26,538 nucleotides of DNA from an uncultured Desulfobulbaceae bacterium (GTDB lineage Bacteria; Desulfobacterota; Desulfobulbia; Desulfobulbales; BM004), in assembly GCA_947258675.1 (NCBI GenBank), contig CAMYJP010000063.1:1-26538 (forward strand), written 5' to 3'. The notes beneath the pieces are model-generated. The model worked only from the letters and a program-made list of their open reading frames with translations. It was not told the DNA's origin and did no database searches. The position numbers and the translations under genes are program-made. Shown here piece after piece: positions 10,991-23,175 of this stretch. How positions within the stretch are numbered: the stretch's first letter is position 1; each line of letters opens with the position of its first letter.

Positions 10991-11107
10991 CCCACAGCAA
11001 ATACACTTTCCTTATACTGGCAAGAAAATTGATGTATAGCGACCAGAATATCATCAGGTTGCAAGAGGGATTACCGCAAATTAGTGCTCCTGAGCAAGTG
11101 TAACTAT

Positions 11108-13042
11108 ATGAAAGGGAAAAACAAGTTGAATAAAAACGCCTTTGAACGCTGGACGATTGAAAACTCCCAGGATTTATATGGGATTCAGAATTGGGGGGCT
11201 GGCTACTTTGATATAAGCAAGAAAGGTCATGTAGTCATTACCCCGTTTCCTGGGAATAAAACTGTGGCTATCAGCCTGATGAATATCATTTCAGGAATTA
11301 ATGAACGTGGATTGAACATGCCTGTTCTGCTCCGAATTCAAAACGTTCTGGACTCCCAGTTAACGCTTCTGCACAACAGCTTCAATTCCGCAATTAACGA
11401 GTTTGGATATCAGGGAAAATTCAGGGGAGTGTACCCGATTAAAGTAAACCAACAGCAGCAGGTTCTTGAAGAGGTTGCCCAGTTTGGTTCCCGCTATCAT
11501 CATGGATTCGAAGCCGGCAGCAAAGCGGAGCTGATAGCCGCCTTGTCACAACTGCAAGATGAAGAAGCGTGCCTAGTTTGCAATGGCTATAAAGATGAAG
11601 AGTTTGTCGATCTGGGGCTTTATGCTTGTAAAATGGGATACAAATGTTTTTTTGTCATTGAATCGCCAACAGAGCTTCAATTAATCCTTGAACGGGGTGA
11701 AAAGCATAGCATCAGACCAATGATCGGTGTAAGGGCAAAACTGTCAAGCAAGGCAGGGGGCCACTGGACCGAGTCAGGAGGTGACAAGTCAATTTTCGGG
11801 TTAAACTCAACCCAGATAATTGATGTAGTGGATAAATTGAAAGAAAAAGGAATGCTGGACTGTTTACAGCTACTCCACTACCATCTCGGTTCACAGATTC
11901 CCAATATAAGGGATATCAGGGCTGCCGCTTTGGAGGCTTGCCGGATATACACGGAATTGGTGGATGAAGGGGCGGCCATGGGATATCTTGATCTTGGAGG
12001 AGGATTAGCAGTTGATTATGACGGGTCTCATACGAACTATACAAACAGCCGGAATTATTCCACAGATGAATATTGTGCCGATGTCATTGAGACCATTATA
12101 GCTACCCTTGAAGGCAAAGATATCGAGCATCCAACAATAATTACCGAGTCGGGTCGAGCGACGGTGGCTTACTATTCAGTATTGCTTTTCAATATTCTGG
12201 ATGTGAGCCGATTTGATACAATGCCGATCCCGGAATCGCTGCCATTAGACACGCCCGATGTTATTGGTAACATGCTGGAGGTGCTTAAGGTTTTATCCAT
12301 TAGAAATCTGCAGGAGTGTTTGAATGATGCTATTTATTATCGGGATCAAATCCATCAGCTTTTTAAGCATGGCAATATTTCTCTGCGGCAGAGATCACTG
12401 GGTGAGTCCATTTTCTGGGATGTTGTCCAGAACATAGCCGCTTTAGTCAAAGAGCTGAAGCACGTTCCTCCTGATCTTGCCGATATCGAATCTGCCCTGT
12501 CAGATACATATTACGGCAACTTCAGTGTATTTCAGTCTCTGCCTGATGCCTGGGCCATTGGTCATCTATTCCCTGTTATGCCGATACACCGTTTAAAAGA
12601 AGAGCCTCTAAGACAGGCGATTCTTGCAGATATAACCTGTGACTGCGATGGCAAGATAGACCGGTTTATAGATCTACATGGTGATCGAAAATCTCTACCT
12701 TTGCATGAGTTGAAAGATTCTGAAGAGTATTACCTCGGTGCTTTTCTGGTTGGAGCATACCAGGAAACCCTTGGTGACCTTCATAATCTGTTCGGAGATA
12801 CCAATGTAGTAACAATTCGGATTACCGAAGAAGGTGATTATGATCTGGTGCGGGAAATTGAAGGAGATTCTGTCGCAGATGTGCTTTCTTATGTGGAGTT
12901 TGATCCTAAATCCATGGTAGTTCAATTTCGAGAAAAAGCTGAACAGGCAGTTCGCAAAGGCAGAATTGCTGCCAGGGAAAGGCGAAAAATCATGAAGGCG
13001 TTTGAGGCAGGCCTTCGGGGGTATACGTATTATGAGAAATAA
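11108..13042 (+). CDS. speA: Biosynthetic arginine decarboxylase SpeA
   Basis: The 644-residue PLP enzyme (fold III) decarboxylates arginine to agmatine. PIKVNQ carries the PLP lysine, Lys112; the blocks GFEAGSKAEL, HYHLGSQIPNI, DLGGGLAVDYDGS, TESGRA and LHGDRKSLPL are all as in SpeA. Length is close to E. coli SpeA (658). The reading frame is open from GTG 11084; I choose ATG 11108. TTG 11126, 9 bp after AAAGGG, is also plausible and gives a start like MNKNAFERW. It opens a run of polyamine genes on the same strand, with CASDH following after 222 bp. Expression may be influenced by the inverted repeats just upstream. Confidence 0.96.
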   Translation: MKGKNKLNKNAFERWTIENSQDLYGIQNWGAGYFDISKKGHVVITPFPGNKTVAISLMNIISGINERGLNMPVLLRIQNVLDSQLTLLHNSFNSAINEFGYQGKFRGVYPIKVNQQQQVLEEVAQFGSRYHHGFEAGSKAELIAALSQLQDEEACLVCNGYKDEEFVDLGLYACKMGYKCFFVIESPTELQLILERGEKHSIRPMIGVRAKLSSKAGGHWTESGGDKSIFGLNSTQIIDVVDKLKEKGMLDCLQLLHYHLGSQIPNIRDIRAAALEACRIYTELVDEGAAMGYLDLGGGLAVDYDGSHTNYTNSRNYSTDEYCADVIETIIATLEGKDIEHPTIITESGRATVAYYSVLLFNILDVSRFDTMPIPESLPLDTPDVIGNMLEVLKVLSIRNLQECLNDAIYYRDQIHQLFKHGNISLRQRSLGESIFWDVVQNIAALVKELKHVPPDLADIESALSDTYYGNFSVFQSLPDAWAIGHLFPVMPIHRLKEEPLRQAILADITCDCDGKIDRFIDLHGDRKSLPLHELKDSEEYYLGAFLVGAYQETLGDLHNLFGDTNVVTIRITEEGDYDLVREIEGDSVADVLSYVEFDPKSMVVQFREKAEQAVRKGRIAARERRKIMKAFEAGLRGYTYYEK

Positions 13043-13048
13043 TACGTA
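13024..13048 (+). terminator. Hairpin across the speA stop codon
   Basis: A perfect 10-bp stem (13024-13033 with 13039-13048) and a 5-base loop include the speA TAA at 13040-13042. There is no T run, so it may be a weak terminator or an mRNA-stabilising end. Confidence 0.4.
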
Positions 13049-13264
13049 ATGACTTCGTACAAAGTGGCCAGGTATTGTATTAGGTTAGATTATTTTATAA
13101 AAATTGTGTTCTATAAGGTTGTCATTATTCAGTATTTTCGTATTCTGTATGTGAATTCTTTCGAAGTTTCAATTAAGTCGTTATATGCATAGCCACATCA
13201 AATAAACGTCTTTTGCAAACTTGAATGCACGATTCATTATAAATAGACACGGGAAAAGAAAATC

Positions 13265-14455
13265 ATGTCTAGAGTTTTAATTATAGGTGCCGGTGGGGTC
13301 GGCCATGGGGTCGGCCAGGTTGTTGCCCATAAATGTTCCCAGGTGCCGGAAGTATTTACCGACATCTGTCTTGCCAGCCGAACGCCTGCCAAATGTGACA
13401 TGATAGCGACCCAACTGCAAAAAAATATACGAACTGCCCGTGTGAATGCGGACAATGTTCCTGAACTGGTGTCGCTGATTAATGATTTCAAGCCTGATTT
13501 GGTTATTAATGTAGCCCTTCCCTATCAGGATCTACATATTATGGACGCTTGTCTGGAAACCGGAGTTGATTATCTTGACACGGCAAACTATGAGCCCCCG
13601 GATGAGGCGAGATTCTGCTATAAGTGGCAGTGGGATTATGATCAACGCTTTAAGGAAAAGGGAATAATGGCTTTACTGGGAAGCGGCTTTGATCCTGGAG
13701 TTACAAATGTCTTCTGTGCTTGGGCTGAGAAAAATCACTTCGACGAAATTCACGAAATCGATATCATCGACTGTAATGCTGGCGATCACGGTCAGCCGTT
13801 TGCCACCAATTTTAATCCGGAAATAAATATCAGAGAAGTAACCGCAAAAGGGAGATATTATGACAATGGTGCCTGGTTGGAAACCGAACCATTGTCAGTT
13901 TCAAAAGTTTTTGATTTTCCTGAATCCATCGGGCCACGGAAAATATATCTTATGTATCATGAAGAATTGGAATCACTTACAAAGAATATAAAGGGGATAA
14001 AGAAAGCCCGATTCTGGATGACATTTTCTGATAATTATCTGAAGCATCTGCAGGTGTTGGAAAATGTGGGAATGACCAGGATCGATCCGGTACTGTATAA
14101 TGGAAGAGAAATTGTGCCACTGAAGTTTTTAAAAGCCCTTTTGCCGGATCCTGCATCTCTAGGTCCGGTTACCAAGGGCAAAACCTGCATAGGTTGTATG
14201 ATAAAGGGCATCAAAGGCGGCAAAGAAAAGAATTATTATGTCTACAATATCTGCGATCATGAAAGTTGTTATCGTGAAGTACAATCGCAGGCCATCTCTT
14301 ACACAACCGGTGTTCCGGCAATGATTGGCGGACTTTTGATGCTTACACAAGTCTGGAAAGGGCAAGGGGTGTTTAATATGGAACAACTGGACCCGACCCC
14401 TTTCATGGAAGAACTCAAGCAACATGGACTTCCGTGGACAGAGGTTATTCTGTGA
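13265..14455 (+). CDS. Carboxy(nor)spermidine dehydrogenase/synthase (saccharopine dehydrogenase-like)
   Basis: The 396-residue protein has an N-terminal Rossmann motif (IGAGGVGHGV, residues 6-15), then LASRTPAKC, VALPYQDLHIMDACLETGVDYLDTANYE and LGSGFDPGVTNVFCA, the pattern of the LYS9-like CASDH family. CASDH condenses aspartate semialdehyde with putrescine (or diaminopropane) and reduces the imine with NADPH to carboxyspermidine (or carboxynorspermidine). It overlaps nspC, the next enzyme, by 4 bp, and speA and the agmatinase flank the pair. The putrescine supply makes carboxyspermidine the likely product. The family also contains saccharopine dehydrogenases, but the neighbours decide the call. 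Confidence 0.92.
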   Translation: MSRVLIIGAGGVGHGVGQVVAHKCSQVPEVFTDICLASRTPAKCDMIATQLQKNIRTARVNADNVPELVSLINDFKPDLVINVALPYQDLHIMDACLETGVDYLDTANYEPPDEARFCYKWQWDYDQRFKEKGIMALLGSGFDPGVTNVFCAWAEKNHFDEIHEIDIIDCNAGDHGQPFATNFNPEINIREVTAKGRYYDNGAWLETEPLSVSKVFDFPESIGPRKIYLMYHEELESLTKNIKGIKKARFWMTFSDNYLKHLQVLENVGMTRIDPVLYNGREIVPLKFLKALLPDPASLGPVTKGKTCIGCMIKGIKGGKEKNYYVYNICDHESCYREVQSQAISYTTGVPAMIGGLLMLTQVWKGQGVFNMEQLDPTPFMEELKQHGLPWTEVIL

Positions 14456-15591
14456 GTCTGAACCTTGATCAGGTGCCAACCCCCTGTTTTGTGATAGATG
14501 AAGAGGCAGTTAAAAGAAATCTGCATATACTTGCCCAGGTAAAAAAGCGGACCGGCTGCCGAATTCTACTGGCTTTAAAAGCATTTTCCATGTTCAGTTT
14601 GTTCCCTCTAATAGGAAAGACGCTGGACGGAGTCTGTGCGAGTTCCTCCCATGAAGCCAGGTTGGGAAGGGAGGAATTCGGTGGTGAAGTCCATGTTTTT
14701 GCTGCGGCATATAGCGAACAAGATATAAAAGAGCTTATTTCCACTGCCGATTATCTTCTGTTCAATTCTTTTTCCCAATGGAAATGCTTCCGGCCTTTAG
14801 TAACAGGGGCCAACCGTGCATTATCCTGTGGCATCCGCGTCAATCCCGAGCAGTCCGAAGCACCGGTTGCACTCTATGACCCATGCTGTCCCGGGTCAAG
14901 GCTTGGGGTTAAAAAGAAAAACTTTATTGAGAGAGAATTGACGGGTATTTCAGGCCTTCATTTTCACACTCTCTGTGAACAGAATGCTGATGCCCTTGCC
15001 AGGACATTGAATGCTTTTGAGGAAAACTTCGGCGGGTATCTTGACCAATTTGACTGGGTAAATTTCGGGGGCGGTCATCACATTACCAGACCTGACTATG
15101 ATTTGGATCTTCTTTGCGAATTGATTTTATATTTTAAAGAGAAATACAATATCACAGTGTATCTAGAACCCGGTGAAGCCGTTGTTCTGAACTCTGGTAT
15201 CCTGGTTGCTTCGGTGCTTGACATTATAGATGTCGACATCAAAACAGCCATTCTAGATACCTCAGCTGCCGCCCATATGCCGGACGTGCTTGAAATGCCG
15301 TACCGACCTGATGTGCAAGGTGCAGATCAACCAGGAGCGTTCCCAAACACTTACAGGCTAGCAGGCCATTCCTGCCTGGCTGGTGATGTTATGGGAGAGT
15401 ATTCATTCCAAAATCCACTCACTCCAGGCGATAAAGTGGCTTTCTTGGATATGGCCCATTATACCATGGTAAAAACGACCACTTTCAATGGGTTACAATT
15501 GCCGGCAATTGCTGTTTACCGGGAAAAGGATGACCATTTGGAGGTTATACGTAGGTTCGGGTATGAAGATTTTAAAACCAGGCTTTCATGA
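14452..15591 (+). CDS. nspC: Carboxynorspermidine/carboxyspermidine decarboxylase NspC
   Basis: I place the start at GTG 14452, which overlaps the CASDH stop (GTGA) and has GAGG about 7 bp upstream; the frame is open further 5'. The 379-residue PLP decarboxylase (fold III, alanine-racemase-like) has its PLP lysine at Lys43 (LALKAFSMF), then ASSSHEARLG, FNSFSQW, RVNPE, FHTLCEQ, WVNFGGGHHIT and EPGEAVV. The C-terminal AGHSCLAGDVMGEY provides the active-site Cys and Asp expected of NspC. It makes spermidine from carboxyspermidine. It is translationally coupled to CASDH and precedes agmatinase by 34 bp. Confidence 0.95.
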   Translation: MSLNLDQVPTPCFVIDEEAVKRNLHILAQVKKRTGCRILLALKAFSMFSLFPLIGKTLDGVCASSSHEARLGREEFGGEVHVFAAAYSEQDIKELISTADYLLFNSFSQWKCFRPLVTGANRALSCGIRVNPEQSEAPVALYDPCCPGSRLGVKKKNFIERELTGISGLHFHTLCEQNADALARTLNAFEENFGGYLDQFDWVNFGGGHHITRPDYDLDLLCELILYFKEKYNITVYLEPGEAVVLNSGILVASVLDIIDVDIKTAILDTSAAAHMPDVLEMPYRPDVQGADQPGAFPNTYRLAGHSCLAGDVMGEYSFQNPLTPGDKVAFLDMAHYTMVKTTTFNGLQLPAIAVYREKDDHLEVIRRFGYEDFKTRLS

Positions 15592-15625
15592 TGGAGCAAA
15601 GGCTGGAGGAGATGTAATTACAGGT

Positions 15626-16498
15626 ATGAATAAGGAGAGATATGTAAGTTTTCTGGAGTCGGAGTTAAAGTCAAAATCAAAGGAAGATTCTCTCTTCCAT
15701 ATAATTCCTGCCCCTTACGAAGCAAGCGTTTCCTATGGAAAAGGCGCTGCGAAAGGTCCATCAGCAATCCTTGAGGCATCGCAACACTTAGAATTATTTG
15801 ATGGGGTCAGCATACCCGCGGAGCATGGCATCTATACACATCATCCTATAGCTTGTCACGGCAAGCCGGAAAAGATTTTACAGGAGTTAGCAAGCTGTGT
15901 TTCTCAAATACTGGTTTTGAATAAAATACCGATAGTATTGGGCGGTGAACATACTGTGACCCTCGGTGCTTTGCAGGCAATAAAAAAAGAGTATAAAAGG
16001 TTCGGGGTGATTCAATTCGATGCCCACGCTGATTTACGGAATACATATGAAGGAAACCCATTCAGCCATGCATGTGTGATGCAACGTATACTGGACCTGG
16101 GTCTGCCTGTTTATCAAATTGGCGTGAGAAGCCTATCCAATGAGGAAGCTGTTCTGAGAAGTGAAAAAAAAATAGGCCATCTTGATGCGGTAACCATATT
16201 TTCGCAAAGCATACCGGAGACAATACTACCTGATGATTTTCCCTCAGATATATATATCACAATTGATGTGGACGTGTTCGATCCATCCTTAATCCCCTCC
16301 ACCGGCACACCTGAACCTGGCGGTCTAAACTGGTATCAGACAATGCAGCTTCTGACTGCCATAATTTGTGGCAGAAATGTAATTGGGTTTGACATTGTGG
16401 AACTGGCACCCATTTCTCAAATGCATGCTCCTGACTATACAATAGCCCGGCTTCTTTATAATTTTCTAGGAGTGATTACCAGGAATTTCGGGGATTAA
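15626..16498 (+). CDS. speB: Agmatinase SpeB (ureohydrolase family)
   Basis: Manganese ureohydrolase turning agmatine into putrescine and urea. The frame is open well inside nspC; I choose ATG 15626, since the family begins about 25 residues before the IPAPYEASVSYG block, with GGAGGA at 15605-15610 as a rather distant ribosome site. ATG 15563, overlapping nspC, is the alternative. The 290-residue form keeps the metal ligands: His109 in GGEHT, Asp132/His134/Asp136 in FDAHADLR, and Asp214/Asp216 in IDVDVFDP. STGTPEPGG and GFDIVELAP follow as expected. With speA it completes arginine to putrescine, the substrate of CASDH. Confidence 0.94.
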   Translation: MNKERYVSFLESELKSKSKEDSLFHIIPAPYEASVSYGKGAAKGPSAILEASQHLELFDGVSIPAEHGIYTHHPIACHGKPEKILQELASCVSQILVLNKIPIVLGGEHTVTLGALQAIKKEYKRFGVIQFDAHADLRNTYEGNPFSHACVMQRILDLGLPVYQIGVRSLSNEEAVLRSEKKIGHLDAVTIFSQSIPETILPDDFPSDIYITIDVDVFDPSLIPSTGTPEPGGLNWYQTMQLLTAIICGRNVIGFDIVELAPISQMHAPDYTIARLLYNFLGVITRNFGD

Positions 16499-17735: not shown

Positions 17736-18200
17736 TTATTTCGTCACGACACTAGGCCAATTTTTGTCAGCCTGAAGGATATTTGCTTCCATTTCCTTTT
17801 CCCACATGGCCTGTATTTTTTTGTTAAGATTGAGAAATAGTTTCCCTTCGACAATCTTCCATGATTGGGGATCAATATCAGCCGTGGTCCCACGACTTAC
17901 AGCGTATGCTCAGTAACCTCCGTATTTTGGGATGTATTTGTCAGGGTTTGCTATGAACAGATCGCGGTTCTCCGAACTTGCAAACAGCCATCTTGCTCCT
18001 TGCCAGTCATGAGAATATATTTCTTTTCCTTCTTTTGGCCCTCCGTTTGTAAAATAGGCAACCGGGTCATATCCTTTTATGGCTACCCCATTAGAATCAA
18101 CATTGATCAGTGATGTATGGCCTGAGCAGGAAGAGAGGAAAAGCGAAATTGAAAGAAGAATAAATACCGGTTTGCACATTCTGTTAAATGTTTGTTTCAT
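17736..18200 (-). CDS. YHS-domain lipoprotein with in-frame TGA read as selenocysteine
   Basis: From ATG 18200 the frame reads 96 residues to a TGA at 17912-17910, then continues open for 57 residues to TAA at 17738-17736. The part before the TGA has a lipoprotein signal (LSSC, Cys25) and a YHS domain (IKGYDPVAYF, WQGARWLFASSENRDLF, NPDKYIPKYGGY). The part after it (AYAVSRGTTADIDPQSWKIV, LFLNLNKKIQAMWEKE) is the known C-terminal half of the same family, which has Cys or Sec right after YGGY. A hairpin fitting the bacterial SECIS rules follows the TGA. The product would be a 154-residue envelope-attached selenoprotein with Sec97. Function is unknown; YHS domains are linked to metal or redox roles. 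An annotation ending at the TGA would lose a third of the protein. Confidence 0.88.
17880..17912 (-). promoter_or_regulatory. Candidate bacterial SECIS element (with Sec UGA codon)
   Basis: After the UGA (17912-17910) come 12 bases, then a 7-bp stem AGUCGUG (17897-17891) pairing with CACGGCU (17886-17880, one G-U pair), with apical loop GGAC. The loop starts 19 nt after the UGA and has G in its first two positions. Both match the published bSECIS consensus (loop 16-37 nt from UGA, conserved G early in the loop). It lies inside the coding region, as bacterial SECIS elements do, and would bind SelB with Sec-tRNA. Confidence 0.75.
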
Positions 18201-18280
18201 TATTCAACCCTCTGGTAGAATGTTTTTAGTGTCATCATTCATTCTATTGACATTTAAATGGACTCTTAAGTAATTATCTA

Positions 18281-20687: not shown

Positions 20688-21728
20688 ATGGATAAAGGAA
20701 GACGCACGTTTTTTATTCTGCTTTTTATCATCGGCCTCCTTGATCTTTGCCTGTGGGGTGTCATTATTGTCGAACCCGGTTTCGTTATTTCTCCTTCCAT
20801 ATTTCTACTCTATCGGTTTGTTTTTATTGCATCTCTGTTTTTTATTATACTGTACAAGTCAGACTTACACATCCTGCATACTTTTTGGGTAGCATTGCTT
20901 TTTGCATTTTTCAGTGTTTTTGTTCTGTTAGGCATGTTTATACTGTATAGAAAACATGAGGAATATAATTTTCAGACCGGTCTGCTCTATCATATCGACA
21001 AGGAAGAAGGTGAGAATATAGAAGAACTCGAGAACTTGAAAACACTTTTTAACCTTGAAGAGTTACGCAGAGTCGCACCGTTAGTGGACGGGATGACATC
21101 AGAGAGCAAAGATGACAGAGTAGCAGCAATTCAGGCAATGGAGCAGATTACCGATTCTGTCCGTATAAGGGATGCATTGCTGTATGCCAGAAAAGATCCT
21201 CACAAAGAAGTTCAATATTTTGCAAATGATGCACTTAAGAAAATTAATGATGCATACATGGAGAAAATAAAGCATTTTCAAAATGTTATAAACAACACCT
21301 CTGATCCTCCTCAGGAGAAATATATTGAACTTGCTGATTGTTATGCTGCAGTAGCAAAAGCAGGTATAGATCATCCTGTTCTGTTGAAATTTTATTTCCA
21401 GGAGGCCATAAATTATTATCAGTATGTCCTTGATAATTTGAATATGCAAAATAATGTAATGGATCATGGTTTATCGATCTGGAATAATGTCCTACCTAAA
21501 TTAATATCAGCATTGTATTACAATGGGGACTATGAGTCGTGTTTGGATTATTGTGAGATAGCTTTAAAAGAGGAGGATTTAAGACCTCTATGTGGTCTAT
21601 ATAAGGCGAGATGTCTCTTTAAGATGAAGAAATTATCAAGTCTCAAGAATTTTGCTCGTGAAACAGAAGATTTGAGAATTACTTCAATCGATAACTTTTT
21701 GGCTTTAACAGAATTACCTCATGGATGA
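20688..21728 (+). CDS. PelE-like membrane protein with HEAT/TPR-like repeats
   Basis: ATG 20688 is chosen because AAAGGAAA lies about 8 bp upstream; the frame itself opens at TTG 20664. The 346-residue protein has membrane segments near residues 8-28, 36-55 and 63-87. A helical repeat region follows: one HEAT-like unit (MEQITDSVRIRDALLYARKD) and TPR-like helices to the end (KYIELADCYAAVAKAG, YYNGDYESCLDYCEIALKEE). PelE in Pseudomonas is likewise an inner-membrane protein with cytoplasmic TPRs that joins PelD and PelF. The gene is 28 bp after the pelD-like gene and overlaps pelF by 8 bp. The position and topology support the call more than residue matches do. Confidence 0.72.
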   Translation: MDKGRRTFFILLFIIGLLDLCLWGVIIVEPGFVISPSIFLLYRFVFIASLFFIILYKSDLHILHTFWVALLFAFFSVFVLLGMFILYRKHEEYNFQTGLLYHIDKEEGENIEELENLKTLFNLEELRRVAPLVDGMTSESKDDRVAAIQAMEQITDSVRIRDALLYARKDPHKEVQYFANDALKKINDAYMEKIKHFQNVINNTSDPPQEKYIELADCYAAVAKAGIDHPVLLKFYFQEAINYYQYVLDNLNMQNNVMDHGLSIWNNVLPKLISALYYNGDYESCLDYCEIALKEEDLRPLCGLYKARCLFKMKKLSSLKNFARETEDLRITSIDNFLALTELPHG

Positions 21729-23175
21729 TGTCTGTTTTATTCTGGAGGGTACATATCCGTTCGTAAAAGGTGGTGTTTCTTCATGGACCCATCAACTTAT
21801 CGAAGCTCTTCCGGATATGTCTTTTTCCCTCGTAACTCTTTCACCTACTGTCGGCCCACCAAAAAAGTACAACTATCCGGTTCCTGACAACATTACAACG
21901 TTGGTTGAATGTTTTCTTTATAATGTGAACATTACTAAACAACCTTGTCCCCATGAAAAAGACAAAGTTTTTTTCTGGGAGTCTTTCTCACGCTTCCTTG
22001 AAGGTGAGGGAGGTAGCTATCTGCCTCATTTTGAAAAAATGGTATCGCTGTTGACAGATCCGGCCTTGAGGGCTGTTAACAGCCATGATGTAATTTATTC
22101 TAAAGAGTCACAGCAGTTGGTAGAAGCTTTATATGATTCAGCAAAAAGTACCTGTCCCTTCTTTGATTTTTTTTGGACATGGCGTTCCATGCTCATTGTA
22201 TTCCTGCAGGCACTTAACGTAGAAATACCTCCGGCCAGAGTGTATCATTCTGTTTGTACAGGGTATGCCGGTCTTGTGGCCGCAGTTGCAAAAATCAAAA
22301 ACAATCGCCCTTTAATATTGACAGAGCACGGGATATACACCAAGGAAAGGCAGATTGAAATAAATCAGGCAGATTGGATACCCCACAAAGAGCGCAGCAG
22401 GGTTTACATTGACACATCTCAAGGGGCAATCAAAGACTTGTGGCTAGACAATTTTATGCGCTTGGGGCAATTGACTTATGAGAGTTCTGATATCATCCTT
22501 ACCTTGTATTCAGGTAACAAAGAATTGGAAGTTGAATTTGGCGCAGATCCTGAAAAAATTGAAATAATTCCAAATGGTGTTGAATTGGAAAAGTACTCAC
22601 CGCAGCGTATTCTGATTCAGAAAAGGCTTAATGGACTAGACCCTCAGAGAGATATACGCAGAATCGGTCTTGTAGGCAGAGTAGTTCCTATAAAGGATAT
22701 TAAAATGTTTATCAAGGTGAGTAAAATTGTCTCAAACATTATGCCGAATGCATTGTTTCAGGTTATCGGTCCGACGGAAGAGGACGAGGAATACCTGCAA
22801 GAATGCCTGGATTTGATCGAATTATTGGGAGTTAAATCCAACTGTGAACTCACAGGTCCCCAGGATCTGGTCCGGGAAAAGACCTATGCCATACTGGACA
22901 TTATGGCCTTGACCAGTATCAGTGAAGGGCAACCACTTACCATGCTCGAGGCACTCTGTGTGGGTGTGCCTTGTGTGGCAACAGATGTAGGTTCATGTGG
23001 TGAGTTAATTAATGGGCGCACTGAAAAGGATCGCGCACTTGGTTCATGTGGATATGTTGTTTCAATAGGGAATGCCGAAGAGTTTGCCCAGGCATGTCTT
23101 TCAATTTTACAAAATCTCGAACTGCACAAGACAAAATCTCGAACTGCACAAGACAATGGTGGAAAATGGTTATAA
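21721..23175 (+). CDS. pelF: PelF-like GT4 glycosyltransferase, 3' end frameshifted
   Basis: The protein opens with CFILEGTYPFVKGGVSSW (residues 5-22), a hallmark of PelF, the cytosolic glycosyltransferase that polymerises the Pel polysaccharide. The GT4 catalytic half carries GLVGRVVPIKDIKMFI, the nucleotide-sugar residues SEGQPLTMLEAL, and GVPCVATDVGSCGELI. The frame ends after 484 residues with KSRTAQDNGGKWL, which is an artefact of a 22-bp tandem duplication at 23109-23152. Removing one copy restores a 500-residue protein ending at TGA 23243-23245, with MVENGYKRIDTYYRQDDIV and KELYMKY, the expected PelF C-terminus. As read here, about 29 native residues are replaced by 13 foreign ones, which may or may not inactivate the enzyme. 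pelG does not follow. Confidence 0.9.
   Translation: MDDVCFILEGTYPFVKGGVSSWTHQLIEALPDMSFSLVTLSPTVGPPKKYNYPVPDNITTLVECFLYNVNITKQPCPHEKDKVFFWESFSRFLEGEGGSYLPHFEKMVSLLTDPALRAVNSHDVIYSKESQQLVEALYDSAKSTCPFFDFFWTWRSMLIVFLQALNVEIPPARVYHSVCTGYAGLVAAVAKIKNNRPLILTEHGIYTKERQIEINQADWIPHKERSRVYIDTSQGAIKDLWLDNFMRLGQLTYESSDIILTLYSGNKELEVEFGADPEKIEIIPNGVELEKYSPQRILIQKRLNGLDPQRDIRRIGLVGRVVPIKDIKMFIKVSKIVSNIMPNALFQVIGPTEEDEEYLQECLDLIELLGVKSNCELTGPQDLVREKTYAILDIMALTSISEGQPLTMLEALCVGVPCVATDVGSCGELINGRTEKDRALGSCGYVVSIGNAEEFAQACLSILQNLELHKTKSRTAQDNGGKWL
23109..23152 (+). repeat. 22-bp perfect tandem duplication in pelF
   Basis: Two identical 22-bp copies lie head to tail, 23109-23130 and 23131-23152; the match runs 4 bases further. 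Each begins ACAAAATCTCGAAC. Because 22 is not a multiple of 3, the extra copy shifts the frame by one base. The single-copy version restores the conserved PelF end. Confidence 0.97.

Follow-up and report, generated by a model that had tools for sequence, protein, structure and literature searches.

A further member of the YHS (seleno)protein family NF041384 with a probable selenocysteine at residue 97, from a bacterium related to Desulfobulbaceae

A YHS selenoprotein is said to have been reported first in a 2007 paper on Olavius. The YHS selenoprotein is listed in a table of the marine metagenome selenoproteome published in 2008 (PMC2398784) and in a table from 2022 (PMC9312934), and a table of a 2026 review gives the family NF041384 as GxU (PMC13188914). 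In the literature searched, which covers few subscription papers, this review was the only paper found to name NF041384, and no functional study of the family was found there.

We analysed a stretch of 26,538 nucleotides, referred to here as the window, in which an initial annotation had pointed to a selenocysteine (Sec)-containing YHS lipoprotein hidden behind an in-frame TGA. This sequence observation, at 17736-18200 on the minus strand, was confirmed. The Sec reading is strongly supported by the comparisons described below, whereas its novelty is not, as both the family and its Sec form are already catalogued; the word "undescribed" is not supported, since NCBIfam already names NF041384 a YHS domain-containing (seleno)protein. 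Translation with TGA as U from the ATG at 18200 contained only one in-frame TGA, directly after YGGY, and it is this codon that interrupts the frame, as had been described; according to the list of open reading frames, an ordinary call does stop the protein at 96 aa. The 57 codons 3' of the TGA were rightly taken for the C-terminal half of the family, as the NF041384 profile matched residues 39-149 on both sides of the TGA with 163.1 bits (cut-off 70). A Pfam search of the C-terminal half gave no match. The reading as an envelope lipoprotein agrees with an L-S-S-C motif, read by eye at residues 22-25, and the lipobox column 25 is Cys in 90 of the 119 listed homologues. The parts of the gene are collected in Table 1. 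The truncated gene call is thereby corrected, and a clean example is added to a little-studied selenoprotein family.

Table 1. Positions in the window of the YHS gene and its parts, with the basis of each assignment
Feature	Position	Strand	Basis
Predicted complete selenoprotein gene, 154 residues, Sec at 97, stop TAA 17738-17736	17736..18200	-	translation with TGA=U
In-frame TGA, predicted selenocysteine codon, residue 97	17910..17912	-	position count and homologue comparison
bSECIS hairpin, stem 17897-17891 / 17886-17880, loop GGAC 17890-17887	17880..17897	-	folding and published rule
Downstream half, residues 98-154, dropped by ordinary gene call	17739..17909	-	conserved, purifying selection
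Pfam YHS match, residues 53-92	17925..18044	-	26 bits, below gathering score 30.3
Probable lipoprotein signal peptide, residues 1-25, lipobox L-S-S-C	18126..18200	-	by eye
Shine-Dalgarno-like AGAGGG, 7 nt 5' of ATG	18208..18213	-	by eye

According to the bSECIS rule as given in the 2026 review, the loop has 3-9 nt with a G in its first two positions, the stem has 4-16 bp, the spacing is 16-37 nt and the energy is at most -7.5 kcal/mol (PMC13188914). It was scored here in a strict version, in which a contiguous stem is required. Folding gave the hairpin AGUCGUG-GGAC-CACGGCU with seven pairs, one of them G-U. The 7-bp hairpin with a GGAC loop that had been proposed is thus present, but it does not start 19 nt past the UGA: the stem begins after 12 nt, and it is the loop that begins after 19 nt. 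With a stem of 7, the loop GGAC, a spacing of 19 and -8.2 kcal/mol, the hairpin fits the bSECIS rule, as had also been claimed.

We then considered what could be expected by chance within the window. The folded 52-nt stretch is of ordinary stability (z -0.37; 68 of 200 shuffles fold as well). The bSECIS rule was satisfied by 13 of the 1074 TGA triplets of the window, or 1.2% (both strands, any frame, the gene's own TGA included), and by 244 of 17652 sampled positions. At the composition of the window, a run of 57 open codons past a stop would arise by chance in about 3% of cases. Ten TGA triplets are preceded by 60 or more open codons and followed by 40 or more, and by eye only the one at 17912-17910 continues a known family. 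A scan of the whole window with Rfam gave no family at gathering score, and a tRNA search of it found none. Chance is excluded by the comparison of homologues, that is, by the hairpin in TGA versus Cys genes and by the share of the family among the loci found by a DNA pattern.

A protein search found 2043 proteins at E 0.001 or better, of which 120 were listed, including the window's own truncated product; with this product left out, the homologue counts refer to 119 listed of the 2043. Cys or Sec had been expected at residue 97, and the alignment bore this out: 115 of the 119 listed homologues have Cys there and the other four have Trp. All 119 run past YGGY, and none ends at the TGA site. 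In genome contigs, the DNA pattern YGGY-TGA-A[YF]A was found in 27 stretches, 23 of which are TGA genes of the NF041384 family, while four (L002, L016, L022, L026) are unrelated. In 22 of these 23 loci the frame has no second stop before the point where the family usually ends, and the remaining one, L019, is open to the end of the fetched stretch. Their record titles name Desulfobulbaceae, Desulfobacterales, Deltaproteobacteria and Nitrospirae/Nitrospiraceae/Thermodesulfovibrionia, together with one Betaproteobacteria and the Olavius-associated Delta 1. No relatives of the YHS gene were found in the viral contigs scanned. A TGH pattern run over 395 genomes of the phylum gave only 2 hits, so the family model was used instead. 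In the class of G004, whose locus L005 bears the title Thermodesulfovibrionia, the family cut-off was exceeded in 32 of 230 genomes; TGA occurred in 10 matches, spread over 9 genomes. A TGA copy and a stop-free copy are present together in three genomes (G007, G020 and G808).

To compare the Sec and Cys forms, 83 gene records covering position 97 were reduced to 68 that are unique over 60 nt by removing identical 60-mers. Codon 97 was TGA in 28 of them, TGT in 23 and TGC in 17. The bSECIS rule was satisfied by 21 of the 28 unique TGA genes and by none of the 40 unique Cys genes. The seven TGA genes outside the strict rule (L078, L024, L021, L019, L027, L018 and L020) miss it, as seen by eye, because one mismatch breaks a similar stem. 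Comparison of 25 of the 28 TGA genes (L001, L048 and L049 left out) distinguished two sub-types, SRG, which includes the window gene, and AMG/ALG, in which the stem is shifted by one and the loop start is kept. Covariation in the main register of the SRG sub-type (register A) alone was weak. Residues 102-104 read SRG in 18 of the 28 TGA genes versus 3 of the 40 Cys genes, whereas SQ was present in none of the TGA genes versus 14 of the Cys genes (both by eye), and from this contrast it seems that the hairpin shapes the protein sequence too. Taken together, the 28 TGA and 40 Cys genes tie the hairpin to the TGA form. We also noticed that L048 (in G220) and L049 (in G218) represent a distinct YHS sub-family with the TGA after YGGY followed by ARNLATAG, and that their hairpin differs, with a spacing of 25 and the loop AGGT.

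Selection on the two sides of the TGA was estimated between the window gene and the eight nearest distinct relatives among those listed (six TGA and two TGY, left from 14 rows in which six pairs were duplicates), with codons 102-107 left out. Past the TGA, pN ranged from 0.22 to 0.28, and ahead of it from 0.22 to 0.27; for pS, which is saturated or nearly so, the ranges were 0.73-1.09 and 0.62-0.89. Purifying selection is equally strong past the TGA, which indicates that the downstream part is translated and kept. Within the hairpin, the four- and sixfold codons 102-105 are almost fixed in 24 TGA genes (S102 AGC in 15/16, R103 CGT in 15/16, G104 GGG in 22/23, S105 TCC in 13/13), while most other such codons vary, with three or four codons each at A98, A100, V101 and A107. 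Some bias was seen outside the hairpin too (A40 GCC in 20/24 and, at twofold positions, Y96 TAC in 23/24 and F73 TTT in 21/24). These results bear on one alternative: the TGA might be an ordinary stop, an error of sequencing or the mark of a pseudogene, in which case the protein has 96 residues and the rest is a remnant. The standard code does end the frame at this TGA, and TGA terminates 7 of the 20 window ORFs examined (38 listed) and hence is a working stop in the organism. However, selection on the codons after the TGA equals that before it, 23 other loci have retained this TGA, 22 of them with the frame open to the family end, and the synonymous fixation within the hairpin argues against a remnant, so that we consider this alternative very improbable.

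The machinery for Sec insertion was looked for in relatives from the window's order, which we call Desulfobulbales. In a sample of 242 genomes of this order, a family member over the cut-off was present in 26, with 10 one-TGA matches in 9 genomes. Seven of these nine carry a window-like TGA gene (G002, G005, G006, G008, G010, G012 and G018); all seven have selA, selB and selD, selA being partial in G010 and G012, and tRNA-Sec was over the Rfam gathering score in four of them (G005, G006, G008 and G018). The best selD match in each of the seven contains one in-frame TGA, as is expected for a Sec-containing SelD. In G218 and G220, which hold the distinct sub-family, selB was not over its cut-off, and tRNA-Sec was present in G218 and absent in G220. 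Across the 21 genomes with TGA genes found by the pattern, selB was over the cut-off in 16 and tRNA-Sec was detected in 9; G007 and G011 had neither selB over the cut-off nor tRNA-Sec over the score, despite their TGA gene. As selB was also found in 13 of 16 genomes with the Cys form only, selB alone is no marker of Sec use here.

It could be argued that a selC-like tRNA-Cys with a UCA anticodon inserts cysteine at the UGA, which would yield the Cys form. Such selC* tRNA-Cys, some of them with a UCA anticodon, are reported from Nitrospirae, Thermodesulfobacteria and Proteobacteria in PMC7609411, and the Nitrospirota genomes with a TGA gene (G003, G004, G007, G009, G011, G014 and G020) showed no tRNA-Sec over the Rfam score. 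The relatives from the same order as the window, in contrast, have selA, selB and selD in seven of seven cases and a clear tRNA-Sec in four, and cysteine reading is in our opinion just as improbable as a plain stop. Five of the Nitrospirota genomes (G003, G004, G009, G014 and G020) have selB over its cut-off together with the TGA-YHS gene, with tRNA-Sec not over the RF01852 score, and ARAGORN did not find tRNA-Sec near selB in G003 and G020. A divergent tRNA-Sec in these Nitrospirota genomes is possible, and a Nitrospirae lineage in which selC overlaps selB is mentioned in PMC8124441. The least probable alternative, a UGA that encodes tryptophan (in a code such as table 4), could appeal to the four listed homologues with Trp at 97, which are protein records only and whose Trp may itself go back to a TGA translated with a different code, but Cys is the family residue at this position, and in the 20 window ORFs examined TGA acts as a stop in seven while TGG is present in 17.

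The locus is thus, with very high probability as judged from comparative sequence data, a true selenoprotein gene, one that belongs to the YHS (seleno)protein family NF041384 and has Sec at residue 97. SelB carrying Sec-tRNA would bind the hairpin just past the UGA and insert selenocysteine at 97, a step that has comparative support. The product would be a pre-protein of 154 residues, which would be exported and, to judge from the lipobox, probably lipidated at Cys25. The bacterium with this gene would be related to Desulfobulbaceae.

The best predicted model of the protein is confident from residue 31, with a mean pLDDT of 89.3 (80.0 to 67.3 for the other four models). The fold alignment comprised the window protein and 63 of the 119 homologues, all of these with Cys at 97. 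In the model, residue 97 lies immediately before a short helix, 98-102. Cysteine occurs in the protein only as Cys9, within the signal peptide, and as Cys25 of the lipobox, so the mature chain would have just the lipidated Cys25 and Sec97, and Sec97 would lack a partner in the chain. This favours a redox centre with one Sec or a metal ligand, and the redox or metal function that had been suggested for the protein seems plausible. Most likely, Sec97 acts as a single selenol centre, which would react with an oxidant or an external thiol and then be restored by a different reductant; the main alternative, and our second choice, is that Sec97 may serve as a ligand of a metal or metalloid. The classical set of metal-binding YHS/TRASH ligands (Asp/Cys and three Cys) was not found, as only D45 is kept. 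An internal repeat was also considered and rejected, because hhalign of the two halves aligned only four residues common to both cuts.

The history of the gene was examined next to that of its host. The DnaG encoded in the window is nearest to genomes of one order, at 55-58% identity, and in the same order G018, G008, G006 and G005 hold the loci L023, L010, L007 and L006, titled Desulfobulbaceae. In a tree of 64 rows, seven changes between Sec and Cys were counted, at least three of them forced by well-supported branches, and Sec was clustered (0 of 500 shuffles were as low). The window gene pairs with L074 (from G003, titled Nitrospiraceae) with support 96/94 and not with the Desulfobulbales group; both members of the pair sit on fairly long end branches (0.58 and 0.28), and the tree leaves the wider fork unsettled. 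The nearest YHS copies, L074, L070 and L077, come from genomes titled Nitrospiraceae or Thermodesulfovibrionia. Set against a DnaG near Desulfobulbaceae, this placement of the YHS gene hints at a possible transfer between phyla. The repeated exchange of Sec and Cys, together with the tie between hairpin and TGA, makes the family a fair test case of why anaerobe envelope proteins keep selenium. As a separate observation, the DnaG matches in at least eight genomes of the same order (G080, G120, G155, G063, G085, G116, G128 and G069) each contain one in-frame TAG, which may reflect use of the pyrrolysine code, an error or an end effect.

The YHS gene is a single gene, flanked by a convergent MFS-like gene on one side and a divergent FHA gene on the other. 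An operon context was rejected: among the 12 largest neighbour clusters listed, the biggest cover five (L003, L007, L012, L014 and L023) or four of the 23 TGA loci, apart from one of 15, which proved to be the YHS gene read in its antisense frame. Ten neighbours from the window were compared by tblastn at E 1e-6 with the loci collected up to that point, and none had a match; three plasmid-borne Cys relatives had, by eye, no named neighbour in common. Elsewhere in the window, a polyamine cluster at 11084-16498 contains arginine decarboxylase, carboxynorspermidine decarboxylase and agmatinase, with a carboxynorspermidine synthase-like gene that is below its cut-off. A PelF-type glycosyltransferase at 21721-23175, over its cut-off, is possibly part of an exopolysaccharide locus.

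Among the known systems, the window gene is closest to NF041384 itself, with which it shares the match on both sides of the TGA and the Sec/Cys in the GxU/GxC motif; no difference other than in sequence was found, and the gene is a further TGA member that the ordinary ORF call cuts. The YHS domain protein (OS) in the table of PMC2398784 is of the same family by name, and OS probably stands for Olavius symbiont. The genome of the Olavius-associated Delta 1 carries a TGA copy, L021, of the AMG/ALG sub-type with a shifted hairpin off the strict rule, in contrast to the SRG sub-type of the window gene. The copper-sensing YHS domain of the Mycobacterium phlei adenylyl cyclase, as described in PMC4626032, shares the name, and its first ligand, Asp, corresponds by eye to D45 of the window protein. 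Its three Cys ligands have no counterpart: with the ligand spacing given in PMC4626032, the expected places are by eye occupied by A48, A74 and N78, whereas the single Cys/Sec of the window protein, at 97, lies outside the Pfam YHS match. The window gene is thus a well-supported further example rather than a new discovery, as selenoproteins had been catalogued in its family before.
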